A stretch of DNA of 64,000 nucleotides from Flavivirga sp. 57AJ16. Lineage in GTDB: Bacteria > Bacteroidota > Bacteroidia > Flavobacteriales > Flavobacteriaceae. Each line of letters opens with the position of its first letter. The stretch's first letter is position 1. The notes under the pieces were generated by a model, which was not told the DNA's origin, did no database searches, and worked only from the letters and a program-made list of their open reading frames with translations. Where the stretch lies: assembly GCF_028736925.1 (NCBI RefSeq), contig NZ_JAQZAT010000005.1, positions 186,001 through 250,000 of the forward strand, given 5' to 3'. Positions 4,856 to 49,594 of the stretch are shown here, piece by piece. The translations under genes were made by a program, and so were the position numbers.

Positions 4856-4874
4856 ATTCGTATCATTTTAAAGG

Positions 4875-4919
4875 ATACTGAAACGTACTTCGATTCCGCT
4901 CAGTACAAGAGTTCAGTAT
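4875..4919. repeat. Palindromic repeat between hisG and hisD
   Basis: Outer arms ATACTGAA (4875-4882) and TTCAGTAT (4912-4919) enclose an inner GTAC...GTAC hairpin with the sequence TACTTCGATTCCGCTCAGTAC. A closely similar core (TACTTCGACTACGCTCAGTACA) occurs at about 6683-6704, so this is a dispersed repeat family. Its right arm touches the hisG stop codon. Confidence 0.75.
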
Positions 4920-5776
4920 TAAAGCACCATTTTTTCAATAGGACAGACCAAAATGCCTTGTGCACCATTAGCTTTTAATTCATCAATAACATCCCAAAAC
5001 TCATTTTTGCTTATAACAGAGTGAACAGAACTCCAGCCTTCTTGTGCTAAAGGTAAAACCGTTGGGCTTTTCATGCCCGGTAATACATTAATAATGGCCT
5101 GGATTTTCTCGTTAGGGGCATTCAATAAAATATACTTTGATTGACGTCCTTTTAATACGGATTGAATTCTAAACTGAATTTTATCAAGAATGGCCTGTTT
5201 ATCTGCACTAAGAAGCGGAGAAACAGCTAACACAGCTTCGGATTTAAGAATGGTTTCTACTTCTTTTAAGTTATTTTTAAACAAGGTACTTCCGCTAGAA
5301 ACGATATCACAAATGGCATCTGCTAAGCCTATGTTTGGCGCTATTTCCACAGAACCATTAATAATGTGAAGGTTCGCAGAAATATGATTCTTTTTCAAAT
5401 AACTTTTAACGGTATTTGGATAGGATGTCGCAATACGTTTTCCTTCTAAGTCCTGAATGCCTTTGTAATCAACCGATTTTGGTACAGCGATACAAACCCT
5501 ACAGGTAGAAAAGCCCAATTTTTCGGCTACGCTAATGTCATTACCTTTTTCGATCAGAACATTTTCACCTATAATCGCTGCGTCTACTACGCCATCTTTA
5601 AGGTATTGCGGGATGTCCCCATTTCTTAAGTAAAATACCTCTACTGGAAAATTTCTGGCTGCTGCTTTTAATTGATCCTTTCCATTATCGATAGAAATAC
5701 CGATGTCTTTTAAAATTTTCATCGAGTCTTCGTTTAAACGCCCCGACTTTTGTACTGCAATTCTTAGTTTACTCAT
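4919..5776 (-). CDS. hisG: ATP phosphoribosyltransferase HisG (long form)
   Basis: First enzyme of histidine synthesis: joins ATP and PRPP to phosphoribosyl-ATP, and is normally feedback-inhibited by histidine. From the ATG at 5776 the protein has 285 residues, the length of the long, HisZ-independent form with a C-terminal ACT-like regulatory domain. The start MSKLRIAVQKSGRL matches the family. Other marks are GENVLIEKG and the PRPP-binding region DIVSSGSTLFKNNL. A reading frame extends nine codons upstream to a TTG at 5803, but those residues (MFQTHKKNK) look like leader sequence. First gene of the operon, preceded by the attenuator. Confidence 0.95.
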   Translation of the reverse strand: MSKLRIAVQKSGRLNEDSMKILKDIGISIDNGKDQLKAAARNFPVEVFYLRNGDIPQYLKDGVVDAAIIGENVLIEKGNDISVAEKLGFSTCRVCIAVPKSVDYKGIQDLEGKRIATSYPNTVKSYLKKNHISANLHIINGSVEIAPNIGLADAICDIVSSGSTLFKNNLKEVETILKSEAVLAVSPLLSADKQAILDKIQFRIQSVLKGRQSKYILLNAPNEKIQAIINVLPGMKSPTVLPLAQEGWSSVHSVISKNEFWDVIDELKANGAQGILVCPIEKMVL

Positions 5777-5826: not shown

Positions 5827-5855
5827 AAACCCGTTTGATTGTCTCAAACGGGTTT
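5827..5855 (-). terminator. Attenuator terminator hairpin of the his operon
   Basis: On the minus strand AAACCCGTTTGA pairs perfectly with TCAAACGGGTTT across a 5-base loop, and is followed by a run of T (GGGTTTTTTT). This is a factor-independent terminator 51 bp before the hisG start. It lies in the leader rather than after a gene, so it should act as an attenuator. Confidence 0.88.
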
Positions 5856-5900
5856 AAAAATATGTTGCTTTTATTCAATACATTTTCAGTTCGCTTGAGA
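5842..5900 (-). promoter_or_regulatory. Antiterminator pairing of the his attenuator
   Basis: In the minus-strand RNA, UCUCAAGCG (complement of 5892-5900), just after the His codons of the leader peptide, can pair over 9 bp (one G-U) with CGUUUGAGA (complement of 5842-5850), the 5' arm of the terminator. A further perfect 10-bp pairing joins UUUAUUCAAU (complement of 5924-5933) with AUUGAAUAAA (complement of 5870-5879). A ribosome stalled at the His codons would leave the antiterminator free; one that reached the stop would cover it. The mechanism is inferred from the classical his attenuator. Confidence 0.7.
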
Positions 5901-5939
5901 GCAAATATGAAAATGATGATGAAATTGAATAAAGTTCAT
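5886..5939 (-). CDS. hisL: His operon leader peptide
   Basis: A 17-codon frame from ATG (5939-5937) to TGA reads MNFIQFHHHFHICSQAN. Four of five residues at positions 7-11 are histidine, far above chance. It lies between the likely promoter and the attenuator hairpin, so the arrangement is that of a his leader peptide whose translation senses charged tRNA-His. I use the symbol hisL by function; sequence identity with the enterobacterial peptide is not implied. Confidence 0.85.
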   Translation of the reverse strand: MNFIQFHHHFHICSQAN

Positions 5940-5956
5940 GTCTTGATTTATTTATG

Positions 5957-5989
5957 CAAATATCTGTAATTTATATTTATAATTCCAAA
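5957..5989 (-). promoter_or_regulatory. Possible his operon promoter
   Basis: On the minus strand a TTTG (5989-5986) is followed after 21 bp by GATATTTG (5964-5957), a 7-of-8 match in the fixed and free positions to the Bacteroidota -7 element TAnnTTTG. Initiation near 5950 would place the leader peptide start about 10 nt into the RNA. Only a motif match. Confidence 0.4.
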
Positions 5990-6084
5990 TTATAGTTAAA
6001 GATTTAATAAAATTAAATAAAACCTGTTTTTTTGCTTTTAAAATTTATCTATTTTTAAAGAATAAGCTTAAATATTAATAAATT

Positions 6085-6600
6085 ATGAAATATCCAGTCT
6101 ATTGTTTTATTATTCTTTTTTCATTTCAAAGTGCTGTTTTTGCTCAGAAAAGTGCTATGGTGATTATGGAAAAAGCTCAAGAAAAAGCTAAAAAAGAAAA
6201 TAAAAATGTGCTTATTATTTTTCATGCTTCTTGGTGTGGTTGGTGTAAAAAAATGGATGCTAATATGAATGACCTTGTTTGTAAAGATTTATTCGACAAG
6301 AGTTTCGTGACCGAACATTTAGTGATTATGGAACCAGATGCAAAAAATCATTTAGAAAATCCTGGTGCAGAGGATATGTTTAAGCAATACACAGGTGGCA
6401 AACAGACCGGGATTCCGTTTTTTTTAATTTTTAATAGCGATGGCAAGCTTATGGAAGATTCTTTTGATTCCGATAAGCAAAATATAGGCTGCCCTGCCAG
6501 TAAAAAAGAAGTTGCTGAATTTGTTAGGATATTAAAGAATACTACAAATTTAAACGATAAAGAATTGGCTGTGATTTCTAAAAAATTTACACTTAAATAA
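6085..6600 (+). CDS. Secreted thioredoxin-like protein
   Basis: 171 residues with a signal peptide at 1-21 (hydrophobic IILFSFQSAVFAQ) and a thioredoxin fold. The redox motif is CGWC in FHASWCGWCKKMD (about residues 48-54), the type found in thioredoxin_7/DUF255-like proteins rather than classical WCGPC. The later IPFFLIF segment supplies the cis-proline position. Likely a periplasmic disulfide reductase or isomerase; the partner is unknown. It stands alone, divergent from the his operon. No clear TAnnTTTG promoter was seen ahead of it. Confidence 0.8.
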   Translation: MKYPVYCFIILFSFQSAVFAQKSAMVIMEKAQEKAKKENKNVLIIFHASWCGWCKKMDANMNDLVCKDLFDKSFVTEHLVIMEPDAKNHLENPGAEDMFKQYTGGKQTGIPFFLIFNSDGKLMEDSFDSDKQNIGCPASKKEVAEFVRILKNTTNLNDKELAVISKKFTLK

Positions 6601-6671
6601 AAGCGCTTGAAAAATTGCTGAATCCCAAACTTGAGACATCTAAGAAGGCAGGCTAAAAAGCATTATATTTT

Positions 6672-6828
6672 GTCATTCAGAGTACTTCGACTACGCTCAG
6701 TACAGGCTATAGCGAAGAATCTTTAGTTTGTACAAATCAAAACATTATAGTATAAAGAGATTCTTCACAGCTTCGCTGCTACCTTCTAAACAAAATATAT
6801 TTTGTTTCTCGGTAATATTCTGAATGAC
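6672..6828. repeat. Large imperfect inverted repeat with dispersed-repeat core
   Basis: Ends GTCATTCAGA (6672-6681) and TCTGAATGAC (6819-6828) are exact inverted repeats. Inside are further complementary parts: AGCGAAGAATCTTT near 6711-6724 against AGAGATTCTTCACAGCTTCGCT near 6756-6777. The whole could fold into a long hairpin. It shares the TACTTCGACTACGCTCAGTAC core with the repeat at 4875-4919. No gene is seen between 6601 and 6859; the element lies between two convergent genes, where it may also help to end transcription. Confidence 0.75.
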
Positions 6829-6859
6829 ACTTCTTTTAGAAACTTATTACTATTATTTA

Positions 6860-7672
6860 TTAGTTTCCTAAAATAATAGGCATGCCACTATCTCCAGAAC
6901 CAATAACAACAACTTTACTATTTGGTGATTCTGATAGCTTAATAGTTGCTTCTATGCCTTTATCTTGAAGAATTTTATCTGTTAAAGAAGCACTTAAAAT
7001 ACGGTTAGCATCTGCTTTACCCTGTGCTTCAATAATTACTTTTTCTGCTTCTTTTGCAGCAGTTACCAGTCTAAATTCGTATTCTAAAGATTCTTGTTCT
7101 TGCCTTAGTTTGCGTTCAATAGCTTCTTTTATAGTGTTTGGCAAGGTAACATCCCTTACCAAGACCTCGTTTAATTGTACATATTGTTTATCGAGAATCT
7201 TTTTGGTTTCGATAAAAATTTCATCTTGAATGGCATCACGCTTACTGGAATATAATTGTTCTGGCGTATAACGACCTACAACACTACGAGCTGCACTGCG
7301 AATAGCGGGCTGTATAACACGTTGTAAATAGTTTTGTCCAAGAGATTGGTGTAAATTCCCCAAGTCTTTATATACTGGCTCATACCAAGCTGAAGCATCA
7401 ATTTGGATCTCTAGTCCATTTGAAGATAGTACTTTCATTTTTTCAAAAAGTTCTTGTTGGCGTACTTCATAAACAAATACTTTATTCCAAGGTGCTACTA
7501 CATGGAACCCTTCTCCCATTGGTGGTTCATCGATAACAACCCCTTCTCCAAAGGTTTTAAACAATACGCCTGCTTCACCAGAATCTATTGTTACAGCAGA
7601 TTTCGCTAATACTATAACAAGTATGATTGCAGCAATAATTACTGGTAGTGCAATTTTTGGTAATTTTTCCAT
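6860..7672 (-). CDS. SPFH/prohibitin-family membrane protein
   Basis: 270 residues. A single N-terminal membrane helix (about 8-27, IALPVIIAAIILVIVLAKSA) is followed by a band 7/SPFH domain (about 30-200; GEAGVLFKTFGEGVV, YLQRVIQPAIRSAARSVVGRYTPEQLYSSKRDAI, VLVRDVTLP) and a helical AKEAEKVIIEAQGKADANRIL coiled region typical of prohibitins. Such proteins form large membrane ring complexes that hold proteases or organise lipids. It is the last gene of an operon, 12 bp after the VWA gene and downstream of fabG. Confidence 0.88.
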   Translation of the reverse strand: MEKLPKIALPVIIAAIILVIVLAKSAVTIDSGEAGVLFKTFGEGVVIDEPPMGEGFHVVAPWNKVFVYEVRQQELFEKMKVLSSNGLEIQIDASAWYEPVYKDLGNLHQSLGQNYLQRVIQPAIRSAARSVVGRYTPEQLYSSKRDAIQDEIFIETKKILDKQYVQLNEVLVRDVTLPNTIKEAIERKLRQEQESLEYEFRLVTAAKEAEKVIIEAQGKADANRILSASLTDKILQDKGIEATIKLSESPNSKVVVIGSGDSGMPIILGN

Positions 7673-7684
7673 TATTATTTTAAT

Positions 7685-9718
7685 TTAAATTAATCCGTTA
7701 TATTTTCTAATAAACCATTCCAGACCTAAGCTTAAGGCGATTATGATAAGTAGATATTTCCAATCTATCAAAGGTATAATATTTTTATTGCTTTTTTGGA
7801 TAGATGCATAACGATTATCGTTTAATAAGTCGTTTACTAAATCCTTTGTATTGTCAATAAAATAACTTTTGCCTTTACTGTTAGTAGCTAATTGTTGCAG
7901 CTTTGTTACATTGGCATTTAAAAATTGCTGCTCAACATGATACTCTAAAATCTGAAAGCTCCCTGATTTGGCGACATTAGCATGGGTTGCCTTTACGGTA
8001 AAACTATATTCTGAAGGGGGTAAACTACTCAAATCTACTTGAAAATTATTGTTTTTAAGAATAAGCGGGAATGTTTTATTTTCTTCTGAAATATTATCTG
8101 TTACAGAGATATTGAGTGTTTCACGCGAATCAAAAACATAATTTTTGTCAAAAAACTCGGCTTTGATTATAATATGACTACTGGCGTTGTAGAAAGACTC
8201 ATAATCAACATTTAATCGATCTTTTCTTTTACTTGAGGCTAAATACTGAACAAGCTTTCCTATAAAATCATCAAATGGATTAAATGATTTGTTATTCGTA
8301 TAGCTTTGTGCTCTCCATTGCCAAATGTTTTCCCCAAATAACGCCCCTTCTCTCCTACCATTAGTCTCAAAAGTCACCAATAAAGGCTCATTTGTTGAGA
8401 TACCATTAATGCGCTTGTTTAAAATGGATTCGAATGGCGTAGTAAAAGAGACTGATCCATAATTTGAATTTAGAGGCGGGAATGATTCAAAGTCGATATT
8501 ATCAACTATAAATGGTGCATAACCGGTGTTTAATTCTGCTTGATACGTTTCGGTCTGGTTTGTGATTTCACTTAAAAAATCAAGCTTGTTGTTATTTAAG
8601 AAATTTAAATCGGTTTTAGTTCCTATAATGGTAAAACAATTCTTGTTTTCTTTTTCTAAAACCTTAAATAATTCTTTAAACTTATAGTTTGGTTGATTTA
8701 TTATAACTAATTGAAAATCATTTATTTTATTTATTATATCTTTTGAATTAAAAAATTCAACAGAGCGCTGTTCATTACTTTCAATACTCTTTTTTAGGGC
8801 TCCTAAATCTGGGTGTAAAAAATCACTAACTATAGCAATTTTTGTTTTCTGATCGATGACTTCTACCGCAAAGTTTTTAGAATTATTAATCTTGTTTTTT
8901 TCATTATCGATAGGAACAATCGTTGCTTTATAACTACTTACACCAACACCATTTGCCGGTAATGTAAAGTTAAGAACCTTCGAGTTGTTTTCTTTTGATA
9001 AGCGAATCGATTCAGAATAGACGGTTGTATGCCCCCTTGTTACTAGAAAACGGGAATTTATGGTGCTATTTCCATTATAAACTAAAATGGTTTCTACAGG
9101 AAATCTGTTTTTCAAATAGGCATACTTGTTTACATTGAGTTGCTGAATTTTTAAATCGGTGTATGTTACCGTATCTCCTAATATAACTGGATAAATGTTT
9201 TGTTTGTATGTCGATGTGGCGAACTGATAATCATCACCATAGGTTTGGTTACCGTCTGAAATCAATAAGGTAGGTGCTGTTGTTTGTCTATATATTTGGG
9301 ATAATTGCTTAAAAGCATGGTTAATATTTGTCTGATTCCCTGAAAAAGTAATGGAATCCGATGCTTTAAACGATGCGCCAAATGTATAGAGGTCTATATT
9401 GAATTTATCATTTAAATGATCATCATTAGACAGTCTTTCAACTAAATTAAGAACTTGCTTATCTTGATTGAGATGCTTTATAGAACTTGAGTTATCTATA
9501 GCTACGACCAAATTTGGTTTTTCTACGGAAAGTTTAACTTGTTCAAACTTCGGATTTATAAGTAATAAGAGCATAGAAAAAATGCTGAGAAACCTTAAAA
9601 AAGAAAAAAGCATGCTCAATCTGGACATGCTTTTCTTTTTAGTATAATACTGAAAAAGCGCTAAAAACAGGGCTGTAATTCCAGCAAGTATGATATAAAT
9701 AATCGTTTCTGTTTGCAT
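7685..9718 (-). CDS. Membrane protein with von Willebrand factor A domain
   Basis: 677 residues from the ATG at 9718. Two N-terminal membrane helices (about 5-22 and 32-50) precede a VWA domain whose metal-ion site DNSSS is seen in VVAIDNSSSIKH; after it comes a long periplasmic region and a final membrane helix (WKYLLIIIALSLGLEWFI) near the C-terminus. This build resembles BatA/BatB-like or CoxE-like Bacteroidota proteins, but no exact role can be assigned. The frame opens 14 codons earlier at a TTG (9760); those codons lie in a dispersed intergenic repeat, so the ATG is preferred. It follows fabG and precedes the SPFH gene. Confidence 0.78.
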   Translation of the reverse strand: MQTETIIYIILAGITALFLALFQYYTKKKSMSRLSMLFSFLRFLSIFSMLLLLINPKFEQVKLSVEKPNLVVAIDNSSSIKHLNQDKQVLNLVERLSNDDHLNDKFNIDLYTFGASFKASDSITFSGNQTNINHAFKQLSQIYRQTTAPTLLISDGNQTYGDDYQFATSTYKQNIYPVILGDTVTYTDLKIQQLNVNKYAYLKNRFPVETILVYNGNSTINSRFLVTRGHTTVYSESIRLSKENNSKVLNFTLPANGVGVSSYKATIVPIDNEKNKINNSKNFAVEVIDQKTKIAIVSDFLHPDLGALKKSIESNEQRSVEFFNSKDIINKINDFQLVIINQPNYKFKELFKVLEKENKNCFTIIGTKTDLNFLNNNKLDFLSEITNQTETYQAELNTGYAPFIVDNIDFESFPPLNSNYGSVSFTTPFESILNKRINGISTNEPLLVTFETNGRREGALFGENIWQWRAQSYTNNKSFNPFDDFIGKLVQYLASSKRKDRLNVDYESFYNASSHIIIKAEFFDKNYVFDSRETLNISVTDNISEENKTFPLILKNNNFQVDLSSLPPSEYSFTVKATHANVAKSGSFQILEYHVEQQFLNANVTKLQQLATNSKGKSYFIDNTKDLVNDLLNDNRYASIQKSNKNIIPLIDWKYLLIIIALSLGLEWFIRKYNGLI

Positions 9719-9753
9719 TTTAGATGGCCGATTTTTTTGATTGCCGATTCTTG

Positions 9754-9779
9754 AATTCAAAAATCGTGATTCGTAAATC
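9754..9779. repeat. Dispersed repeat GATTTACGAATYACGATTTKTGAATT
   Basis: On the minus strand this sequence matches, with two differences, the spacer repeats at 957 and 1163 beside hisH/hisB (GATTTACGAATTACGATTTGTGAATT). The three copies define a small intergenic repeat family in this genome. This copy fills the gap between fabG and the VWA gene. Confidence 0.65.
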
Positions 9780-9784
9780 TAAAA

Positions 9785-10531
9785 TTAAGTCAGCATACCG
9801 CCATCAACATGAAGTGTTTGCCCGGTGACATAAGCACTCATATCACTAGCTAAAAACACGCAAACATTCGCAATATCTTCTGGGGTACCACCACGTTTTA
9901 AAGGAATTGCGGCACGCCATCCTTTCACAGTTTCCTCGTCAAGTTTTGCTGTCATTTCTGTTTCTATAAAACCAGGTGCAACGACGTTGCTTCTTATATT
10001 TCTGGAACCTAATTCTAAGGCTACTGATTTTGAAAACCCAATAATCCCAGCTTTTGAGGCTGCATAATTAGTTTGTCCGGCATTTCCTTTAACACCAACC
10101 ACCGAACTCATATTTATAATAGAGCCTTTACGCTGTTTTAGCATGGTGCGCTGCACAGCTTTTGTCATATTAAAAACCGACTTTAGGTTTACTTCTATAA
10201 CCGTATCAAAGTCTTCTTCGCTAATACGCATTAATAAATTATCCTTTGTTATACCTGCATTGTTCACCAAAATATCGATGCTTCCAAATTCGGAAACAAC
10301 TTCATCTGCCAATTTTTGAGCGTCGTCAAAACTAGCGGCATTACTTTGATATCCTTTTGCTTTTACGCCCAGTGCATTCAACTCTGCTTCTAATGCGTTT
10401 GCAGCTTCTACAGAAGCACTGTATGTAAATGCCACATTGGCGCCTTGTTCTGCAAATACTTTTGCAATACCCTTACCAATTCCACGACTTGCTCCAGTAA
10501 CTATGGCTGTTTTTCCTTCTAACAGTTTCAT
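9785..10531 (-). CDS. fabG: 3-oxoacyl-ACP reductase FabG
   Basis: NADPH-dependent reduction of 3-oxoacyl-ACP in fatty acid elongation. 248 residues, normal for the family. The Rossmann motif TGASRGIG lies near residues 12-19, NNAGI near 88-92, the catalytic Ser in INMSSVVG, and Tyr/Lys in YAASKAG (about 155-159); the end HVDGGMLT is typical. It heads a three-gene operon with the VWA and SPFH genes. Its leader is exceptionally long and made of four identical 91-bp repeats, whose last copy contains the start codon. Confidence 0.93.
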   Translation of the reverse strand: MKLLEGKTAIVTGASRGIGKGIAKVFAEQGANVAFTYSASVEAANALEAELNALGVKAKGYQSNAASFDDAQKLADEVVSEFGSIDILVNNAGITKDNLLMRISEEDFDTVIEVNLKSVFNMTKAVQRTMLKQRKGSIINMSSVVGVKGNAGQTNYAASKAGIIGFSKSVALELGSRNIRSNVVAPGFIETEMTAKLDEETVKGWRAAIPLKRGGTPEDIANVCVFLASDMSAYVTGQTLHVDGGMLT

Positions 10532-10911
10532 GTGTATATATTTATTGTTTTTTATTTGTCACATGTAGCATCCATATAATCATTGTCCTTGAATATTGAA
10601 CTTTTAGTTATGGATGTTTCATGTGTATATATTTATTGTTTTTTATTTGTCACATGTAGCATCCATATAATCATTGTCCTTGAATATTGAACTTTTAGTT
10701 ATGGATGTTTCATGTGTATATATTTATTGTTTTTTATTTGTCACATGTAGCATCCATATAATCATTGTCCTTGAATATTGAACTTTTAGTTATGGATGTT
10801 TCATGTGTATATATTTATTGTTTTTTATTTGTCACATGTAGCATCCATATAATCATTGTCCTTGAATATTGAACTTTTAGTTATGGATGTTTCATGTGTA
10901 TATATTTATTA
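10529..10911. repeat. Four identical 91-bp tandem repeats in the fabG leader
   Basis: Copies start at 10529, 10620, 10711 and 10802, with a fifth 19-bp partial at 10893. They appear identical. On the minus strand each unit ends with the same A/T-rich ribosome-binding region and ATG as fabG, but in the upstream copies the ATG is followed by AAA CAT CCA TAA. This gives four tetrapeptide frames (MKHP), starting at 10622, 10713, 10804 and 10895. Each unit can also form a hairpin, as CATCCAT pairs with ATGGATG, and CACATG with CATGTG. The lack of differences points to recent expansion. Confidence 0.95.
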
Positions 10912-10976
10912 ATGTTATGAATGCACAAATTTTACCTTATACGATTCGTAAGTAAAATTGTTAATTATTTTCAATT

Positions 10977-11005
10977 CAAATATAACAAATACAAGTTGCA
11001 CCAAA
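10977..11005 (-). promoter_or_regulatory. Bacteroidota-type promoter for the fabG operon
   Basis: The minus strand has TTTG (11005-11002), a 17-bp spacer, and TATATTTG (10984-10977), a full match to the -7 consensus TAnnTTTG. Initiation near 10970 would give a 5' leader of about 440 nt covering all 91-bp repeats. Confidence 0.6.
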
Positions 11006-11008
11006 TAA

Positions 11009-11038
11009 AAAAACCTCACAAGATTTTATGAGGTTTTT
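11009..11038 (-). terminator. Terminator of the lipoprotein gene
   Basis: AAAAACCTCA pairs with TGAGGTTTTT across a 10-base loop, and on the minus strand is followed by a T run. It ends the 11062-11637 gene immediately before the fabG promoter, and could work in both directions. Confidence 0.8.
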
Positions 11039-11061
11039 AAGAAATTTATAATGGATTAATT

Positions 11062-11637
11062 CTAATTATTTGCAACAAATTTAATATCAACCATTCCAAG
11101 ATATGATATTTTGGAAAACGTTGCAGGCAAGGTTTGACTGGTACCAAAGTTGGAGCCGTAACCAGAAATTAATAGATCTCCCATTTCTACAGGAAATAAG
11201 TCACTTACACCATTGGTAAACTGGTAATAATCGTTAGTATTAACCGAAACGAAGTATGCTGTTCCAGAATCTACAGTTATAGGTTCTATATCTTCAAAAG
11301 ATAAAAGTCCCGAACTTGAAGTGACCATAGCAGTTGCCAAAACGGTTTCTGTCTCTACATTCCATAACGTTACTCGATATATATCATTATTTGGCACTCT
11401 AATCCCTAATGCCGTGATCTTACCATCTTTAAATGATTTAAATTTATAGCCAATCTCGAAGGTGTTAGGCCCATCAACTTTTTGGTAGTTCACCTGCATA
11501 TGCCCACTTTCTATCAATGACTTCATGGGGTATTGTGGTGCAGCTTCTATAATTTCCATGTCATCATCATTTTTTGAACAACTATTAAATAATATCCCCA
11601 TTAATATTATTCCCCAAATTAATTTTTGTGCTTTCAT
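11062..11637 (-). CDS. Lipoprotein with DUF4082-like domain
   Basis: 191 residues. A lipoprotein signal (hydrophobic LIWGIILMGILF, lipobox FNSC with Cys20) is followed by a spacer rich in Asp and a beta-rich domain of about 140 residues. The run of FEIGYKFKSFKDGKITALGIRV, YRVTLWNVETETVLATA and VDSGTAYFVSVNT fits DUF4082, a putative carbohydrate- or surface-associated beta-sandwich. The function is unknown. It is a single-gene unit between fabG and sucD, with its own terminator. Confidence 0.7.
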   Translation of the reverse strand: MKAQKLIWGIILMGILFNSCSKNDDDMEIIEAAPQYPMKSLIESGHMQVNYQKVDGPNTFEIGYKFKSFKDGKITALGIRVPNNDIYRVTLWNVETETVLATAMVTSSSGLLSFEDIEPITVDSGTAYFVSVNTNDYYQFTNGVSDLFPVEMGDLLISGYGSNFGTSQTLPATFSKISYLGMVDIKFVANN

Positions 11638-11702
11638 GATTTCTAGTTTTTATACTAGTATATAAACAAGACCTTATTTTTGTTACCCTATGGCACAAAA
11701 AA

Positions 11703-11732
11703 AATCCGTTAACCAATAAAAGTTAACGGATT
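11703..11732 (-). terminator. Terminator of sucD
   Basis: AATCCGTTAAC (11703-11713) and GTTAACGGATT (11722-11732) form an 11-bp perfect stem with an 8-base loop. On the minus strand it is followed by a long T run, 25 bp after the sucD stop. Confidence 0.9.
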
Positions 11733-11757
11733 AATATTTTAAAGAACTGTTAGAGGT

Positions 11758-12630
11758 TTACCCTAATACTTCAGCTACTTTCTTTCCTATTTCTGCAGGA
11801 GAATCGACCACATGAATACCACAAGCTCTCATAATTTTCTTTTTGGCCTGGGCTGTGTCATCACTGCCTCCTACAATAGCACCAGCATGTCCCATAGTAC
11901 GTCCTGCAGGAGCTGTTTCTCCAGCTATAAAACCTACAATTGGTTTTTTACTTCCACTATCTTTATACCAGTTTGCAGCGTCTGCTTCTAATTGGCCACC
12001 TATTTCCCCGATCATAACAACAGCTTCTGTTTCTGGATCATTAATCAATAATTCAACAGCTTCTTTAGTGGTTGTCCCAATAATTGGATCGCCACCAATA
12101 CCAATGGCCGTAGTAATTCCCAATCCTTGCTTTACCACTTGATCGGCCGCTTCATACGTAAGTGTTCCAGATTTGGAAACAATACCTACTTTACCTTTTT
12201 TGAAAACAAAACCGGGCATAATCCCAACTTTAGCTTCTTCTGGAGTAATAACTCCTGGACAGTTAGGGCCAATTAAGCGGCAATCTTTATCTTTTATATA
12301 GTTAGATGCAGTAATCATATCTGCAACGGGAATACCTTCTGTTATTGTAATAATGACTTTTATCCCGGCATCTGCAGCCTCCATAATAGCATCTGCAGCA
12401 AAAGCGGGTGGAACAAAAATTATGGTAGTATCTGCTCCAACTTTATTAACAGCATCTAAAACGGTATTAAAAACGGGCTTATCTAAATGTGTTTGCCCAC
12501 CTTTTCCTGGTGTAACACCTCCAACCACATTGGTTCCGTACTCAATCATTTGACTAGCGTGGAATGTTCCTTCACTACCTGTAAATCCTTGAACTATAAT
12601 TTTTGAATCTTTATTTACTAAAACACTCAT
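11758..12630 (-). CDS. sucD: Succinyl-CoA ligase, alpha subunit
   Basis: With SucC it forms succinate and ATP or GTP from succinyl-CoA in the TCA cycle. 290 residues, standard length. The CoA-binding start ([35 protein letters not shown]), the GPNCPGVI segment and the phosphorylated histidine in [10 protein letters not shown] are all present. SucC is not nearby; alpha and beta genes are often apart in this phylum. It has its own likely promoter and terminator, so it is probably transcribed alone. Confidence 0.96.
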
Positions 12631-38594: not shown

Positions 38595-39593
38595 ATGACA
38601 GAACAACAACTAAAAATTCTACTAGGAAAAAAGATACTTGTTACAGGCGGTGCTGGCTTTATTGGCTCTAACCTTTGTGAGGTTTTATTAAACCATAACA
38701 TAAAGATCGTTTGCTTAGATAATTTCTCAACAGGAAAGCAAACCAACATAGCGCCTTTTTTAAATAATGACAATTTTAAGTTAATTGAAGGTGATATTAG
38801 AAATCTTGATGATTGTCATAAAGCATGCGTTGATATTGACTATGTATTGCACCAAGCCGCTTTAGGTTCTGTACCTAGATCTATTAACGACCCTATCACT
38901 ACAAATGATGTGAATGTATCTGGCTTTTTAAATATGCTGGTTGCGGCAAGGGATGCAGGTGTGAAAAGATTTATTTATGCTGCAAGTTCTTCCACTTATG
39001 GAGACCATAAAGCTTTACCAAAAGTAGAGGATACCATTGGAAAACCATTGTCTCCTTATGCTATTACTAAATATGTGAATGAATTATATGCCGATATTTT
39101 TTATAGCACATATAAATTGGACACTATTGGACTCCGTTATTTTAATGTTTTCGGAAAAAGACAAGATCCTAACGGTGCTTATGCAGCAGTCATACCAAAA
39201 TTTGTTCAACAATTTGTTAGTCATGAGTCTCCTGTTATTAATGGTGATGGAAGCTATTCTAGAGATTTTACATACATTGACAATGTAGTACAAATGAATA
39301 TTAATGCATTAACTGTTGATAATAAAGAAGCATTAAATACGGTTTACAATGTCGCTTATGGAGAACGAACTACTCTAATTGAATTAGCGACTCTATTAAA
39401 AGAATATTTATCTGAATTTGATAGCGTTATAGGTAATATTGAAATAAAACACAGAGATAATAGAATTGGAGATATCCCTCACTCTTTAGCTTCTATTGAT
39501 AAAGCAAAACAATTATTGAATTATAACCCTAAGTATAATATTAGTAGTGGCTTGAAAGAAGCTGTTAACTGGTATTGGAAAAATTTAAAATAA
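38595..39593 (+). CDS. UDP-N-acetylglucosamine 4-epimerase (WbpP/TviC-like)
   Basis: 332 residues, extended SDR. NAD-binding VTGGAGFIGSNLCE near 17-30, HQAALGSVPRSINDP, the catalytic Ser and Tyr/Lys in SSSTYGDHKALPK and SPYAITKYVNELYAD, RYFNVFGKRQDPNGAYAAVIPKF and YSRDFTYIDNVVQ. These match WbpP and TviC, which interconvert GlcNAc and GalNAc forms of UDP sugars, often acids. It is paired with the dehydrogenase that follows after 26 bp. First gene of the long plus-strand operon. Confidence 0.88.
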   Translation: MTEQQLKILLGKKILVTGGAGFIGSNLCEVLLNHNIKIVCLDNFSTGKQTNIAPFLNNDNFKLIEGDIRNLDDCHKACVDIDYVLHQAALGSVPRSINDPITTNDVNVSGFLNMLVAARDAGVKRFIYAASSSTYGDHKALPKVEDTIGKPLSPYAITKYVNELYADIFYSTYKLDTIGLRYFNVFGKRQDPNGAYAAVIPKFVQQFVSHESPVINGDGSYSRDFTYIDNVVQMNINALTVDNKEALNTVYNVAYGERTTLIELATLLKEYLSEFDSVIGNIEIKHRDNRIGDIPHSLASIDKAKQLLNYNPKYNISSGLKEAVNWYWKNLK

Positions 39594-39619: not shown

Positions 39620-40900
39620 ATGAAGGATATAAAAATTGCTATTATAGGTTTAGGCTACGTAGGTCTTCCTTTGGCTAGGCTTTTCGCAACAAAATATGAT
39701 GTTATAGGCTTTGATATTAATCAAGAAAGAATAGATGAATTAAAACAAGGAAACGACGCAACTTTAGAAGTTGAATCCAGTGTTTTAACATCTGTTCTAA
39801 AACATAATTCAAATGACGGTATAGGTTTATTTTGTTCTTCAAATCTTGAAGATATTAAAGATTGTAACTATTATATAGTTACTGTCCCTACTCCTATCGA
39901 TAAAAACAATCGTCCAGATTTAACACCTTTATATAAATCTAGTGAAACGGTTGCTAAAGTTCTTAAAAAGAATGATATTGTTATTTACGAATCTACTGTA
40001 TATCCAGGCGTTACCGAAGATGAATGTATCCCGGTATTAGAAAAAATAAGTGGACTAAAGTTCAATGAAGATTTTTATGCAGGCTATTCCCCTGAAAGAA
40101 TCAATCCGGGAGACAAACTCCATACTGTAGATAAAATACTTAAAGTGACAGCTGGTTCAACCCCAGAGATTGGTAAAAAAGTAGATGCTTTATACGCTAG
40201 TGTTATAACAGCTGGTACCCATTTAGCACCTACCATTAAAGTTGCTGAAGCTGCTAAAGTCATTGAAAACTCCCAGCGCGATATAAATATTGCTTTTGTT
40301 AATGAATTGGCCAAAATTTTCAATTTAATGAATATTGATACACATTCTGTATTGGAAGCTGCTGGAACTAAATGGAATTTTCTACCATTTAAACCAGGAT
40401 TAGTTGGCGGACATTGTATTGGTGTAGACCCCTATTATTTAGCACAAAAAGCCCAGGAAGTGGGATACCATCCAGAAATTATATTGGCAGGTCGTCGTGT
40501 TAATGATAGTATGGGACAATATGTGGCTTCTGAAGTTATCAAATTAATGGTAAAAAACGATATACGTATAAAAGGGGCTAACATATTGGCTTTAGGTATT
40601 ACATTTAAAGAAAATTGTCCAGACGTTAGGAATACTAAAGCCGTTGATGTCATTAATCAGTTGAAAAGCTATGGCACACAAGTAACGGTATACGATCCAT
40701 GGGCAAACCCAGAAGAAGTAAAGCATGAATACAATTTACAAACCGTAAAACAATTACCTGAAGGCACATTTGATGCTGTTGTTTTAACAGTGGCTCATAC
40801 AGAATTTCTTCAAGAAGACTTGGAATCATTATTAAAAACAAATGGGGTTTTATATGATGTTAAAGGTATTCTAAAAGGAAATATAAGTGGCAGATTGTGA
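39620..40900 (+). CDS. UDP-N-acetylhexosamine 6-dehydrogenase (WbpO/TviB-like)
   Basis: 426 residues. Oxidises UDP-HexNAc to the uronic acid with two NAD. Start IAIIGLGYVGLPLARLFA (GxGxxG), TVPTPIDKNNRPDLTPL, YESTVYPGVTEDECIP, YSPERINPGDK, the catalytic Cys in KPGLVGGHCIGVDPYYL, and ALGITFKENCPDVRNTKAVDV fit the TviB/WbpO group. With the preceding epimerase it would supply a GalNAcA- or GlcNAcA-type building block. Confidence 0.92.
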   Translation: MKDIKIAIIGLGYVGLPLARLFATKYDVIGFDINQERIDELKQGNDATLEVESSVLTSVLKHNSNDGIGLFCSSNLEDIKDCNYYIVTVPTPIDKNNRPDLTPLYKSSETVAKVLKKNDIVIYESTVYPGVTEDECIPVLEKISGLKFNEDFYAGYSPERINPGDKLHTVDKILKVTAGSTPEIGKKVDALYASVITAGTHLAPTIKVAEAAKVIENSQRDINIAFVNELAKIFNLMNIDTHSVLEAAGTKWNFLPFKPGLVGGHCIGVDPYYLAQKAQEVGYHPEIILAGRRVNDSMGQYVASEVIKLMVKNDIRIKGANILALGITFKENCPDVRNTKAVDVINQLKSYGTQVTVYDPWANPEEVKHEYNLQTVKQLPEGTFDAVVLTVAHTEFLQEDLESLLKTNGVLYDVKGILKGNISGRL

Positions 40901-40949: not shown

Positions 40950-42476
40950 TTGAGCCAAATAAAAAAAGGAGCTTTTTTAAATTATGTTACAATTTTTCTA
41001 ACTAATGTAGTTGGTTTAGTTCTAACACCTTTTATTTTAAATTACCTTGGAAAAGCAGAGTATGGCGTTTATACTACTATAGGGGCGCTAGTTGGTACTA
41101 TGTCTATATTAGATTTAGGGCTCACTAATACAATCGTTCGTTTTGTAGCCAAATATCGTGCTGAAGAAGACAGAAAAGGAGAAGAGAATTTTTTGGCCAC
41201 GACAATGCTTATCTATTTTGCTATTTCGGCTGTTATAATTCTTATCGGCTTTGGTTTTTATGGGTATATTGAATCTTATTTCACAAAAATGAATGCCGAT
41301 GAAATTCGTATAGCAAAGACCATTTTCGCGCTATTGATTTTTAATTTGGCTATTGGGTTTCCTGGTGGTAGTTTTAAAGGTATTTGCTATGGCTATGAAT
41401 CTTTTGTATTTCCAAAAGCACTAAATATTTTCCGTTACATTATAAGATCACTTGTTGTGGTGGCTGTTTTGTTATTTGGTGGTAGGGCCATTGCCTTAGT
41501 TATTCTCGATACGATATTCAATATTATTATAATTTTTATCAATTGGTATTTTGTATACTTTAAATTAAAAGTAAGGTTCAAATTGCATAACTTGACTAAA
41601 AAATTCATCAAAGAGATTTTTAGTTATTCAACTTGGATTTTTGTGTTTTCATTGGTCGGTATTTTCCAATGGAAAGCCGGACATTGGATTCTAGGCAGGA
41701 TAGCTTTACCCAGTGTTTTAACCATATATGGTATTGGTATTGTATTAGGCACATACTATGGTGCTTTTTCTACAGCCATTTCAAGTGTGTTTTTACCACG
41801 AGCTACTAAAATGGCCGTAGGAAATGCTACTGGCGAAGAGTTAACTTCCATGATGATTAAAATTGGGCGAATTTCTTTTATAATACTTATGTATATTTTT
41901 GGAGCCTTTTTGCTGTATGGAAATCAATTTGTATTCTTATGGGTTGGTAAAGAGCTAGGCGAAAACGGTAGCCATGAGTCTTGGTTTATAGCTATGCTTA
42001 TAATGTGTGCTTATACGTTACCATTAGTTCAAGGCTTTGGAAACTCAATATTAGAAGCCAAAAGCAAATTATCTTTTAAAGCCATTTTATATCTTACATT
42101 TGTAATTACAGGAGCTGCTTTTGGTGCCTATTTGGCCAAATCTCAAGGTGCCATTGGTATGATTTACGGAACTGTAGCTGGGTGGTTTATTGTGCAAAAT
42201 GTCATGAATTTCTATTATCATAAAGTTATTGGTTTAAATATTATAAGATTTTTTAAAGAGCTATTCCATAAAACACTTTTTGCTATATTATTAATCATTC
42301 TAATTGGCTACTTTATTAACTACATACCCGGAAGCGGTTGGATTAATTTTATTATAAAGTCTATTTCCTACTCTATTGTTTACATGTTTTTTATGTATAC
42401 TATTGGAATTATCGGGTTTGAAAAACAATTATTTAAGAGTACACTTTCACCAGTATTAAAAAAGTTAAAACTATAA
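40950..42476 (+). CDS. wzx: Lipid-linked oligosaccharide flippase (Wzx)
   Basis: 508 residues of the oligosaccharide flippase/MATE-like family with about 12-14 membrane helices, beginning KKGAFLNYVTIFLTNVVGLVLTPFILNYLGKAEYGVYT, as is usual. It would move undecaprenyl-linked repeat units across the inner membrane. The start codon is TTG. Its stop and the next gene's start overlap as TAATG, which implies translational coupling with the PP-loop protein. Confidence 0.88.
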   Translation: MSQIKKGAFLNYVTIFLTNVVGLVLTPFILNYLGKAEYGVYTTIGALVGTMSILDLGLTNTIVRFVAKYRAEEDRKGEENFLATTMLIYFAISAVIILIGFGFYGYIESYFTKMNADEIRIAKTIFALLIFNLAIGFPGGSFKGICYGYESFVFPKALNIFRYIIRSLVVVAVLLFGGRAIALVILDTIFNIIIIFINWYFVYFKLKVRFKLHNLTKKFIKEIFSYSTWIFVFSLVGIFQWKAGHWILGRIALPSVLTIYGIGIVLGTYYGAFSTAISSVFLPRATKMAVGNATGEELTSMMIKIGRISFIILMYIFGAFLLYGNQFVFLWVGKELGENGSHESWFIAMLIMCAYTLPLVQGFGNSILEAKSKLSFKAILYLTFVITGAAFGAYLAKSQGAIGMIYGTVAGWFIVQNVMNFYYHKVIGLNIIRFFKELFHKTLFAILLIILIGYFINYIPGSGWINFIIKSISYSIVYMFFMYTIGIIGFEKQLFKSTLSPVLKKLKL

Positions 42477-43750
42477 TGCTTAAATTAAACAACTTAACCT
42501 TCGAAAATGACGGAAAAAAAATATCATATTCCTATGATATTGAAGGCCATGCTAAAAGTTATTTTGCTCTTAACAAACCTTTTTACGTTTTATATGACCA
42601 GGATATAAGTAAAACTCCATTAAGCTTAGCTATTATTCCGTTGCTTTCCAATATAATGCCAATTTCATGGTTTGTGGGTTTCGATGTTTATATTGATGAA
42701 ATAGATGAAACCTTTTATAACTCATTACTAGAATTGAAAAAGCAGTTTGTGAAATTTCATCCAAACAAAAACATTCAGGGCACTCTGCATTACAACAAGA
42801 TTGTAAAAAATAAAATTGAAGGCACAAATACATCCTTACTTTTTAGTGGCGGTCTGGATTCTTTTGATTCTTTGACACGTCATTATGACAAAAAACCCTA
42901 TTTAATATCAATTCATGGAGCCGATGTTGAAATAAAAGACACAGTTAGGTGGAACGAATTTAAAAAGTTTAATTCTGAAGAAGATATACTGGATCTCTCC
43001 AGATTGTTTTATATAGAGTCTAACCTAAGAGAGTTCTATACTTACAAAGTAGATTTGTTAGTCGATCACCTAGGTTGGTGGGGAGCCGTTCAACATGGTA
43101 TGGCATTAATAGGTGTATTATCCCCTTTAAGCTATAAATATGGTATTACAGATATAAATATAGCAGCGTCTGCTACAAACGAAATCACGTATAGTTGGGG
43201 ATCTTCCCCCTATATTGATGAAAACATGAAGTGGGCAAATACAACTGTAACGCATGATGGTTATCAATTCAAAAGGACAGACAAAACGGATAATGTCGTC
43301 AAATTCGTAAACAACACGGAGTTTAATATTAAACTTAGGGTATGTTATGCCGATGAGCGGAAAGGTTATAACTGTAACGTTTGTCATAAATGCCAACGTA
43401 CTGCTTTAAGTTTAATCTTAGCTGGGGCAAACCCCAACGATTATGGATTTAATTTACCTAAAAATTTTTATGAATTAATTTTTATGAACTTTGGAGAAGA
43501 CTGTATTATGACCAAAGGCATAAAGTATCAATGGACCTGTATTCAAGACAAGGCATTAGAAGTAGATACCTTTTTCGTATTAAACAATGAAGAAAAAGAA
43601 AGGGAAGCTATACAACGTTTTGCTAACTTAGATTTAGACAGCATTGTAAATAAAAATGAAGAAAAAGTAAAACAAAAGAAAAAAAGGAACTTTTTGCTAC
43701 GTCAAAAATTCCCAATGATATATAATATATATAAAAAACTTAAAAAATAA
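42476..43750 (+). CDS. PP-loop ATPase-like protein of the QueC/asparagine-synthetase fold
   Basis: 424 residues, not a known glycan enzyme to me. The PP-loop SGGLDSFDS (about residues 122-130) binds ATP in QueC, ThiI, TilS and asparagine synthetases. Other marks are SIHGADVEI, HGMALIGVLSPLSYKYG, NIAASATNEITYSWGSSPYIDE and a Cys cluster in RVCYADERKGYNCNVCHKCQRTALSLILAG (C-x8-C-x2-C-x2-C) that resembles the zinc site near the QueC C-terminus. The N-terminal 110 residues look unrelated to QueC. The end is rich in Lys. Coupled to wzx by a 1-bp overlap and followed by a pyruvyl transferase. It may adenylate a carboxyl group on a sugar or acid and form an amide; this is inference. Confidence 0.75.
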   Translation: MLKLNNLTFENDGKKISYSYDIEGHAKSYFALNKPFYVLYDQDISKTPLSLAIIPLLSNIMPISWFVGFDVYIDEIDETFYNSLLELKKQFVKFHPNKNIQGTLHYNKIVKNKIEGTNTSLLFSGGLDSFDSLTRHYDKKPYLISIHGADVEIKDTVRWNEFKKFNSEEDILDLSRLFYIESNLREFYTYKVDLLVDHLGWWGAVQHGMALIGVLSPLSYKYGITDINIAASATNEITYSWGSSPYIDENMKWANTTVTHDGYQFKRTDKTDNVVKFVNNTEFNIKLRVCYADERKGYNCNVCHKCQRTALSLILAGANPNDYGFNLPKNFYELIFMNFGEDCIMTKGIKYQWTCIQDKALEVDTFFVLNNEEKEREAIQRFANLDLDSIVNKNEEKVKQKKKRNFLLRQKFPMIYNIYKKLKK

Positions 43751-43758
43751 GTAAAAAA

Positions 43759-44733
43759 ATGCACTACGGATTATTAACTTATCAAGAAGGTAAAGAAAAG
43801 TACAATGTTGGAGATTATGTACAGAGTTTAGCCGCTAGACAATTTCTTCCTCAAACCGATCAATTCATGAATAGGGAAAAGTTGGGAGCATATGATGGAG
43901 AAACCATTAAATTAATAATGAATGGTTGGTTTACACACAACATTCATCATTGGGTTCCTGCAAAAGAAATAGCCCCTTTATTTGTATCATTCCACATGAA
44001 TTCTACAGCAGCTCCTTTCATGTTAACTGAAAAGGGTATTGATTACCTTAAATCACATGAACCTATTGGTTGTAGAGATAAATTTACCGTGAAACTATTA
44101 AAAGAAAAAGGGATAGATGCTTATTTTACAGGTTGTTTAACTTTGACTTTGGATAACTACAAGGTAGACGATTCTCTAAGAGGTGATGATATTTATATTG
44201 TAGATCCTTTTTACAATTATCCAACGCAGGAAAAACTTTTCTTAACCCCTAAACATTTTGTTAGAGGTATTTTAAAGGGTGATGCACTCAATCTTGGTAA
44301 GATAAAAAAACAGCTAAAAAAAGTTGTTGATAAAGATTTACTAGAATCGGCTAACTATGTGACTCAAATTTTACCTGTTGGTAAGCAGACTGATGAAGAA
44401 AAATTTGCTTATGCCGAAGAATGCCTTAAAAAATATGCTAAAGCCAAACTAGTAATTACATCGAGAATACATTGTGCCCTACCCTGCTTAGCTATGGGAA
44501 CACCAGTAATATTTTTAAACTCTTTTAACACCTTTGTAGATACTTGTAGGTTTGACGGTATCATTGAATTGTTTAATCGCATAGATATTGCAGATGATGG
44601 TAGTTTTACTAATAACTTTGGCCTAGATGGTAAAATTACAAAGGACACTATGGTAACTAACTTAGGCCTGCATCATGCATTAGCAGAACCTTTAAAGGAA
44701 AAGTGTAAAAGCTTTATTTCTAAAAACCCATAG
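43759..44733 (+). CDS. Polysaccharide pyruvyl transferase family protein
   Basis: 324 residues. The start HYGLLTYQEGKEKYNVGDYVQSLAARQFL, the GCRDKFTVKLLKEKGIDAYFTGCLTLTL region and KYAKAKLVITSRIHCALPCLAMGTPVIFLN match the PS_pyruv_trans family (WcaK/CsaB-like), which puts pyruvate ketals on sugars or, in some members, does other transfers. It follows the PP-loop gene by 8 bp. Confidence 0.85.
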   Translation: MHYGLLTYQEGKEKYNVGDYVQSLAARQFLPQTDQFMNREKLGAYDGETIKLIMNGWFTHNIHHWVPAKEIAPLFVSFHMNSTAAPFMLTEKGIDYLKSHEPIGCRDKFTVKLLKEKGIDAYFTGCLTLTLDNYKVDDSLRGDDIYIVDPFYNYPTQEKLFLTPKHFVRGILKGDALNLGKIKKQLKKVVDKDLLESANYVTQILPVGKQTDEEKFAYAEECLKKYAKAKLVITSRIHCALPCLAMGTPVIFLNSFNTFVDTCRFDGIIELFNRIDIADDGSFTNNFGLDGKITKDTMVTNLGLHHALAEPLKEKCKSFISKNP

Positions 44734-49186: not shown

Positions 49187-49594
49187 ATGACAGATAAAAA
49201 AATAATTTTTTTTGACGGGGTTTGTAATCTATGTAATGGTTTTATTGATTATGTAATTAATAGAAATAAGAACAACTCGATTTATTATGCAGCACTTCAA
49301 TCAGATATAGCCATAGAAAAACTCAAGGAATACGACAACATAGTGTTAGAATCTAATTACAATACTATTTACTACTATACAGGTAATAAAGTATACAGTA
49401 AGTCATCAGCAGTCTTACGTATCTTTTTAGAATTATCGGTTTTTCATAAGGTAGCAGCAAAAATACTCCTTTTAATTCCTAAATTTATTCGAGATGCTTG
49501 TTATAATTTGGTAGCAAAAAACAGATATAGGTTTTTAGGAAAAAAGGAAACATGTAGACTGCCCACAGAAAATGAAAGAAAACAATTTTTATAG
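49187..49594 (+). CDS. DCC-family thiol-disulfide oxidoreductase (DUF393)
   Basis: 135 residues. Start IIFFDGVCNLCNGFIDYVINR carries the family's DxxCxxC motif (Asp, Cys13-Cys16 region), and RYRFLGKKETCRLPT near the end holds another conserved Cys. Members are thioredoxin-like and are often next to HTTM/vitamin-K-carboxylase-like membrane proteins. One base after the GT2 stop and 6 bp before the next gene, so it is in the glycan operon. Confidence 0.88.
   Translation: MTDKKIIFFDGVCNLCNGFIDYVINRNKNNSIYYAALQSDIAIEKLKEYDNIVLESNYNTIYYYTGNKVYSKSSAVLRIFLELSVFHKVAAKILLLIPKFIRDACYNLVAKNRYRFLGKKETCRLPTENERKQFL

Follow-up and report, generated by a model that had tools for sequence, protein, structure and literature searches.

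The QueC fold is known to have been adapted both to the modification of tRNA and DNA bases and, in phage defence, to the conjugation of proteins. A 2026 survey of the Pfam family PF06508 distinguishes QueC, QatC, LarE, PfkB-linked, WbpG-containing, GMP synthase, Cap9 and archaeal clusters (PMC13329287). Among its members, the chemistry has been solved for QueC and Cap9, both of which convert a carboxylate into an amide (PMC13329287, PMC13279940, PMC11996544). QueC makes the amide first and then the nitrile (PMC13329287), and Cap9, the deazaguanylation enzyme of the type IV cyclic-oligonucleotide-based anti-phage signalling system (CBASS), couples the carboxylate to a protein N-terminus, i.e., to an amine other than ammonia (PMC13279940); QatC belongs to the qatABCD anti-phage defence system. 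On sugars, WbpG, a sugar amidotransferase of an O-antigen locus with a pyrophosphate (PP) loop, falls into one cluster of the PF06508 superfamily (PMC13329287), and in Pseudomonas and Helicobacter pullorum WbpO, WbpP and then WbpS, a proposed amidotransferase, are proposed to lead to the uridine diphosphate (UDP)-linked uronamide UDP-GalNAcAN (PMC6025236). Here, a QueC-like PP-loop gene was analysed in a stretch of 64,000 nucleotides, the window, from Flavivirga sp. 57AJ16 (assembly GCF_028736925.1, contig NZ_JAQZAT010000005.1, positions 186,001 to 250,000).

The gene lies between a flippase gene and a gene for a PS_pyruv_trans homologue, termed PYR. By analogy with the relatives above, its product may make an amide on an acidic sugar of a surface-glycan repeat unit, a proposal to which we assign somewhat less than even odds (about 0.45). 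It starts from the predicted fold, the motifs, the gene context and a partner gene that is constant in Flavobacteriaceae; the adenylation, the amide product, the sugar substrate, the order of steps and the zinc are inferred.

Motifs and predicted fold of the QueC-like protein

The gene and the elements of its product are located as follows.
42476..43750, + strand: gene of the QueC-like PP-loop protein, 424 residues (open reading frame (ORF), Pfam and hhalign comparison, AlphaFold2 model).
42474..42478, + strand: TAATG stop/start overlap of the flippase and QueC-like genes (sequence).
42476..42823, + strand: predicted N-terminal domain, residues 1-116, two strands followed by mixed alpha/beta structure (AlphaFold2 secondary structure, full length and residues 1-117 alone).
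42845..42862, + strand: SGGLDS PP loop, residues 124-129 (sequence; SGGxD[STAG] in 23 of 23 Flavobacteriaceae copies).
43196..43219, + strand: WGSSPYID, residues 241-248 ([WYF]G[STG]xP in 23 of 23 Flavobacteriaceae copies and 24 of 30 tree rows).
43343..43393, + strand: C-x9-C-x2-C-x2-C cluster, residues 290-306, putative zinc site (sequence, alignment).

The ORF and both motifs, PP loop and four-Cys cluster, are retained in all 23 Flavobacteriaceae copies, and G126, D128, R267, C290, N299, C300, C303, K305 and C306 are invariant in an alignment of 26 family members (A5) with identity down to 15%, so that neither the ORF nor the motifs are attributable to chance. As a background, the predicted proteins of at least 200 residues from the same loci were used (631 in total, family copies included); those outside the family contained the four-Cys motif 0 times and SGGxD[ST] 4 times. 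The preliminary description of this DNA had reported the SGGLDS sequence, which was found, and a C-x8-C-x2-C-x2-C cluster, of which the first gap is really one residue longer (C290-x9-C300-x2-C303-x2-C306); x9 recurs in 23 of 23 Flavobacteriaceae copies. Judged from the sequence, the cluster is probably a zinc site. A more divergent member outside A5, from the viral contig L079, has M in place of K305 and is without the exact four-Cys pattern.

The full-length AlphaFold2 model (11 rows) had a predicted local distance difference test (pLDDT) score of 89.9 and a predicted template modelling score of 0.87. Comparison with VIA-align gave QatC 9y02_B as the best match (Z 14.1, root-mean-square deviation (rmsd) 5.4, 297 aligned residues), spanning model residues 1-382; QatC 9y01_B (Z 13.9, rmsd 4.5, 283 aligned), QueC 2pg3 (Z 11.9, rmsd 3.7, 190 aligned), QueC 3bl5_A (Z 11.7, rmsd 3.4, 180 aligned) and Cap9 9nto_B (Z 10.1, rmsd 3.2, 167 aligned) were also matched, and other PP-loop enzymes gave Z values of 7 to 9, among them LarE 8cp4_A (8.7) and the nitrile synthetase ArtA 9lei_C (7.8). 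Against viral models, the best named Foldseek matches were 7-cyano-7-deazaguanine synthases. The N-terminal domain modelled alone reached a pLDDT of 92.7; its best match, to reverse-transcriptase parts, had a Z of 4.1 and is taken as chance, and QatC was absent among the 50 best matches listed, which does not exclude QatC. The N-terminal part, called novel in the preliminary description, may or may not correspond to the QatC extension. The window protein is confidently predicted to fold as a PP-loop ATP-pyrophosphatase nearest to QatC and QueC, in keeping with the QueC-like PP-loop identity put forward earlier.

Matches to family models were weak. Pfam QueC (PF06508) scored 17.6 bits, under its cut-off of 22, and NCBIfam listed only QatC (NF041925, 11.7 bits against a cut-off of 280); up to an expectation (E) value of 10, the window protein was unmatched by asparagine-synthase and sugar-amidotransferase models, including TIGR03573, which we take to be the WbpG-type sugar amidotransferase model. 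Scanned singly, 17 family members touched Pfam QueC weakly in 10 cases (best E 0.0028) and DUF6395 weakly in five (best 0.023), and in NCBIfam two weakly touched asparagine synthase TIGR01536 (best E 0.0099), two QatC (0.054) and one LarE (0.02). A single-sequence phmmer search of the PDB returned nothing, and a profile search of the PDB returned only chance-level rows of QueC and argininosuccinate synthase (E 2.1 and 2.2).

With hhalign, the 26-member profile aligned to the QueC profile over 186 columns, from the PP loop to the Cys cluster (probability 92.5, E 4.9e-7; 88.4 and 2.8e-6 in a run with other settings), and to QatC over 84 columns only (probability 41.5); the QatC and QueC profiles align to each other with a probability of 97.6. 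In the alignment to QueC, its YPDC motif stands opposite Y239-S-W241-G242 (D-C opposite W241-G242) and the R of its VPxRN motif opposite H207. Of 11 QueC reference rows, 10 have YPDC and nine VPxRN, and nine have a first Cys gap of x7, against x9 in the window protein. Because the protein scores below the Pfam QueC cut-off and is without YPDC and VPxRN, it is not a 7-cyano-7-deazaguanine synthase and, those two motifs being missing, it should not bind 7-carboxy-7-deazaguanine in the manner of QueC. Taken together, these model scores and profile alignments suggest that the window family forms a branch of its own among the QueC-like proteins.

The gene was also considered as a stand-in for a missing QueC, the window genome having no QueC over the cut-off; this was rejected, as just one of 60 relatives showed a QueC match at E 1e-20 and the QueC-like gene occurs in 17 of 397 Flavobacteriaceae genomes (close form; 20 when the divergent copies are counted as well). 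Other contigs of the window genome carry two QueD-like genes that exceed their cut-off and a QueE-like gene that does not (88.8 bits, cut-off 240).

Set beside the described systems, the protein shares with QueC the SGGxDS loop, a four-Cys cluster and an alignable core, but has extra N- and C-terminal parts, a glycan rather than a queuosine context, and x9 where the QueC pattern is C(x)8CxxCxxC (PMC13329287). With QatC (9Y01, 9Y02) it has in common a length of about 400 residues and the presence of some N-terminal part ahead of the QueC-like core, which may correspond to that of QatC; it differs in the short profile alignment, in the Cys pattern, which in QatC is C(x)19CGxCxx (PMC13329287), and in having no QatA or QatD match among the window neighbours scanned. 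Cap9 offers a QueC-like core and the precedent of an amide ligase acting without ammonia, whereas its solved chain of 181 residues is without the N-terminal domain, it retains nucleobase motifs resembling those of QueC and is partnered by a CD-NTase (PMC13329287), and the window partner is PYR, with the N-terminus MHYGLL instead of the MG start of the CD-NTase (cGAS/DncV-like nucleotidyltransferase). The likeness to WbpS and WbpG lies in a similar proposed outcome, nitrogen set onto a surface sugar, and the WbpO/WbpP/WbpS context (PMC6025236) resembles TviB/TviC plus the QueC-like gene; the differences are the CxxC(x)6CxC pattern of the WbpG cluster (PMC13329287) and the lack of a glutaminase match among the window neighbours scanned.

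The polysaccharide operon and the PYR partner

The genes flanking the QueC-like gene are the following.
38595..39593, + strand: UDP-N-acetylhexuronate 4-epimerase, TviC-like (NCBIfam NF011728, 388.9 bits, cut-off 760).
39620..40900, + strand: UDP-N-acetylhexosamine 6-dehydrogenase, TviB-like (NCBIfam NF011729, 545.4 bits, cut-off 592).
40950..42476, + strand: Wzx-type flippase (Pfam Polysacc_synt, E 2.7e-16; one BLAST cluster in 23 of 23 loci).
43759..44733, + strand: PS_pyruv_trans homologue (PYR), with the ITSRIHCALPCLAMGTP motif (Pfam PF04230, E 1.5e-18, 68.1 bits, cut-off 25.3).

The polysaccharide-operon setting of the preliminary description is borne out by these genes. Its TAATG coupling was seen, the flippase stop TAA (42474-42476) sharing a base with the ATG of the QueC-like gene (42476-42478), and the pyruvyl transferase it placed right behind begins 8 bases downstream. 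The window locus appears to supply an acidic sugar. The TviB-like enzyme is also over the cut-off of the nucleoside-diphosphate-sugar dehydrogenase model TIGR03026 (403.1 vs 189.8 bits). An amino-sugar-type aminotransferase (383.2 of 420 bits to TIGR04181) and a PseB-like gene (195.4 of 407.75 bits to TIGR03589) are also present in the window. The R-x-H motif of PYR, presumably with a role in phosphoenolpyruvate binding, aligns with Pvg1p 5ax7 (E 0.52 only); S-x-H replaces it in the PYR rows of L015, L018 and L072.

Among the 19 window proteins scanned (nine with Pfam and 10 others with NCBIfam at E 1e-15), there was no match to asparagine synthase or glutaminase, to queD or queE, or to QatA, QatD or CD-NTase; qatB has no Pfam model, so that the scan for qat neighbours really covers only A and D. 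At the end of the polysaccharide operon (49187-49594), a DCC1-like thiol-disulfide oxidoreductase (PF04134) was observed, whose BLAST cluster occurs in 5 of the 23 loci.

The order flippase, QueC-like gene, PYR was found in 23 of 23 Flavobacteriaceae loci (L010 was left out as lying on the same contig as L054; L050 and L058 are near-copies), with gaps of -8 to 13 bases between flippase and QueC-like gene and of -37 to 49 bases between QueC-like gene and PYR, ORF starts being mechanical. Just upstream, 21 loci carry BLAST-cluster mates of the window TviB- and TviC-like genes (names checked by NCBIfam in the window and by BLAST cluster elsewhere), including L062, in which the dehydrogenase is apparently split into two ORFs. 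In the exceptions, L055 and L060, a 66-68% dehydrogenase match lies elsewhere in the genome (the epimerase was not sought there), and the L060 locus keeps an 85-residue ORF that reads like a dehydrogenase end; a dehydrogenase is present in all 23 genomes. TviB/TviC as the decisive partner was rejected, since the pair is not near by in these two loci; as both genomes have a TviB-like gene elsewhere, a uronate is kept as a candidate substrate. The genes after the trio vary.

A search of 397 Flavobacteriaceae genomes with the window PYR matched 42 genomes. PYR at an identity of at least 64% occurs in 17 of them, and this set is identical to that of the genomes carrying the close QueC-like gene; the other 25 have distant copies with at most 52% identity in any piece. 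The QueC-like and PYR searches each drew 397 genomes with consistent identifiers and are taken as one set; for the coincidence of 17 in 17, a hypergeometric p of 3e-30 would hold only if the genomes were independent, which they are not. A count by lineage (p 3e-5) depends on a background that was guessed, and no weight is placed on it. None of 16 loci fetched from the 25 distant-PYR genomes had a QueC-like gene at E 0.01, and PYR can therefore occur independently of the QueC-like protein; in five of these loci, a flippase-like protein (by reading, not family-scanned) directly precedes PYR. The close form of the QueC-like gene was never without PYR in the Flavobacteriaceae examined, against a background of PF04230 in 26 of 60 relatives. 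Of the constant pairing with a pyruvyl transferase that had been considered earlier, the part concerning Flavobacteriaceae stands (23 of 23 loci) and the pairing recurs in some other lineages, but it is absent in others.

Relatives in other lineages and on viral contigs

Relatives were found in 7 of 99 near genomes, at four loci of the genome-contig collection, in 3 of 395 genomes of the phylum, in 20 of 397 Flavobacteriaceae genomes (17 close and three divergent), in 28 plasmid records, all annotated as hypothetical protein, and on 11 distinct IMG/VR contigs (L026 and L027 with the same protein); phage records gave 0 matches. The plasmid hosts are Priestia, haloarchaea, Azospirillum, Gloeothece, Nostoc, Gemmobacter and Pseudobutyrivibrio, and the family as a whole ranges over Flavobacteriaceae, Priestia, Pseudobutyrivibrio, cyanobacteria, alphaproteobacteria, haloarchaea and phage contigs. 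Because it is so patchy, this spread suggests horizontal transfer together with glycan loci. On the family tree of 30 rows, presence of PYR requires eight changes, of which at least five fall on branches with good support; as low a number was reached in 54 of 500 shuffles, so that its clustering is not significant. Branches are long and deep placements unsure.

In nine of the 16 plasmid records read, PYR lies at most two genes away (Priestia 2, Gloeothece 2, Azospirillum 3, Gemmobacter 1, Pseudobutyrivibrio 1). Both PYR-bearing Priestia records have two tandem QueC-like copies, and in Azospirillum the QueC-like gene and PYR form an isolated pair; PYR was not found in the six haloarchaeal records or in Nostoc. 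On the Priestia megaterium plasmid L115, which has two tandem QueC-like paralogues, a DUF6395 protein (PF19932, E 3.2e-55) was observed at 4290-5606; as it weakly resembles the C-terminal Cys part of the QueC-like family, DUF6395 may be another PP-loop relative. An ATP-grasp gene was seen near two of the six haloarchaeal copies without PYR (L012:11006-12208 and L020:8291-9499), and formyltransferases near copies in Gemmobacter and in two haloarchaeal loci.

Of the four divergent Bacteroidota loci, L072 has PYR two genes on, and in the genome of L071 (G018) two PF04230 genes lie on the contig of the locus, at a distance of 17-22 kb. L070, L071 and L072 constitute a divergent subfamily with SCGxDS for SGGxDS, whose loci contain NeuB-like and some UDP-GlcNAc-2-epimerase-like genes (by eye from sequence).

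Among the 11 viral contigs, PYR was found in L079 (E 8.5e-8), 4 bases before the QueC-like gene, and not in the other ten. In this segment of the phage-like contig L079 (IMG/VR 3300032278_002433, 5852-8647), a 255-residue protein that starts with a PP-loop-like CAGVDS and is unmatched in Pfam precedes the adjacent PYR and QueC-like genes, and a Galactosyl_T-like gene (23.5 bits, cut-off 23) comes after them; the segment looks like a phage glycan cassette. In L084 (IMG/VR 3300009129_000023, 9479-12025), a single 848-residue ORF joins a divergent TCGVDS member to a domain of the aspartyl/asparaginyl beta-hydroxylase type (PF05118, E 1.2e-10) and to a tail resembling a hydrolase. The copies in L024, L025, L026, L028, L030 and L031 adjoin matches to tail or tail-fibre PHROGs (weak in L025), and in L030 a Polysacc_synt_3 flippase follows. 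The tail-gene setting suggests receptor conversion.

Candidate reactions

In the proposed amide-forming reaction, ATP would be held in the SGGLDS loop, by analogy with QueC, and the carboxylate of an acidic sugar, in a nucleotide-linked or lipid-linked repeat unit, would be adenylated; attack of ammonia or another amine on the adenylate would give the amide, before export of the repeat unit by the flippase. One candidate substrate is the N-acetylhexuronate from the TviB/TviC-like enzymes, which would become a uronamide, a role proposed elsewhere for WbpS; another is the carboxylate of a pyruvyl group set by PYR. Both options fit the data, with a dehydrogenase in all 23 genomes and with PYR recurring in several phyla, even as the isolated Azospirillum pair. 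A wider claim is doubtful: the QueC/QatC-type four-Cys family of bacteria, haloarchaea and phages would act on the carboxylate of surface sugars that are pyruvylated or uronic, by amidation, nitrile formation or conjugation, together with a PS_pyruv_trans enzyme in many lineages, and the phage copies next to tail-fibre genes would serve receptor conversion.

Several observations weigh against the proposed amide formation. The fold leaves the reaction unfixed, as the PP-loop enzymes include a thiolating one (LarE), a nitrile-forming one (ArtA) and others that act on proteins, and the best Foldseek match in the PDB had an E of 0.013, short of the threshold of 0.001. The substrate motifs of QueC, YPDC and VPxRN, occur in 0 of 23 Flavobacteriaceae copies and 0 of 30 tree rows and so give no guide to the pocket. 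PYR is not a general partner of the QueC-like family: because a home-made PYR hidden Markov model had missed the L079 and L015 copies, absences were rechecked with Pfam, and PF04230 was found in 0 of 74 nearest neighbours (nine viral contigs, six haloarchaeal records, Nostoc, L070, L071 and L073). This check took up to two ORFs per side; in L028 a more distant ORF replaced one of these, and L027 was omitted as a copy of L026; three known PYR proteins served as positive controls and were all found (3 of 77). Outside Flavobacteriaceae, most copies had no TviB/TviC-type gene noted next to them either; a UDP-glucose/GDP-mannose dehydrogenase was seen in Priestia L013 and an NAD epimerase in L020. 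With neither PYR nor TviB/TviC-type genes as general neighbours, neither candidate substrate explains every member.

The alternative that survives best, although unlikely, is an amide ligase working in the reverse sense, in which a free acid (amino acid or hydroxy acid) would be adenylated and joined to an amino sugar or uronate, so that the glycan would bear an N-acyl or aminoacyl substituent. Cap9 provides the precedent of an amine other than ammonia (PMC13279940), and amino-sugar-type genes are near by (the aminotransferase and PseB-like gene of the window, the NeuB-like genes of L070-L072), as are the formyltransferases of the Gemmobacter and haloarchaeal loci. Across the loci examined, however, no acyl-acid biosynthesis gene is a constant neighbour, a place held in Flavobacteriaceae by PYR.

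That this partner is itself the substrate is improbable. Such protein modification would parallel Cap9, acting on the CD-NTase N-terminus, and QatC, thought to act on QatB; QatC is the best structural match, the pairing with PYR is one-to-one in Flavobacteriaceae, and a deazaguanine precursor may be available because QueD-like and QueE-like genes occur in the genome. Yet five PYR N-termini (L009, L055, L058, L066 and the window) start with M[HKE]YGLL and no other PYR row compared starts with MG, unlike CdnD and QatB (motifs: PMC13279940). The YPDC of QueC is absent, moreover, and no CD-NTase, QatA or QatD was found among the neighbours scanned. N-terminal deazaguanylation of PYR was rejected for want of an MG start.

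We know of no glycan nitrile, and there is a similarly small chance that the protein forms a nitrile, as in the second step of QueC, or transfers sulfur on a glycan precursor in an ArtA- or LarE-like manner. ArtA and LarE are among the structural matches, yet their scores do not exceed those of many further PP-loop enzymes matched. QueC does proceed from amide to nitrile, and one family member weakly touches the LarE model, but the four-Cys pattern is of the QueC type and not of the three-Cys LarE type (PMC13329287). A QatC-like defence protein lying by chance inside a capsule locus is highly improbable: the structural match to QatC and the copies on phage contigs are set against 0 PADLOC families, 11.7 of 280 bits to the QatC model, and a flippase and PYR adjoining in 23 of 23 loci.

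Amide formation on a surface sugar, which we still prefer, is not the novelty that the preliminary description took it for, as WbpS (PMC6025236) and WbpG (PMC13329287) are already known. In the available excerpts of the 2026 survey, WbpG is the sole sugar-coat member, and the main text does not contain the words polysaccharide, glycan, pyruvyl or capsule (PMC13329287); a literature search, in which some queries were too broad to inform, found no link between a QueC-like protein and polysaccharide synthesis apart from WbpG (PMC13329287). Since WbpG is alone in this respect and its cluster has another Cys pattern, the window family is most suitably classified, within the QueC-like superfamily, as a new branch that occupies a new setting. 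Proteins like the window protein may fall outside PF06508 surveys, because it scores under the Pfam cut-off. If the wider claim is true, it would describe the first QueC-type function in glycan modification, the distant WbpG branch excepted. Surface polysaccharides would gain a new chemistry from a glycan enzyme of the QueC/QatC type that has a constant partner, and a hypothetical protein that occurs in several phyla would receive a name.

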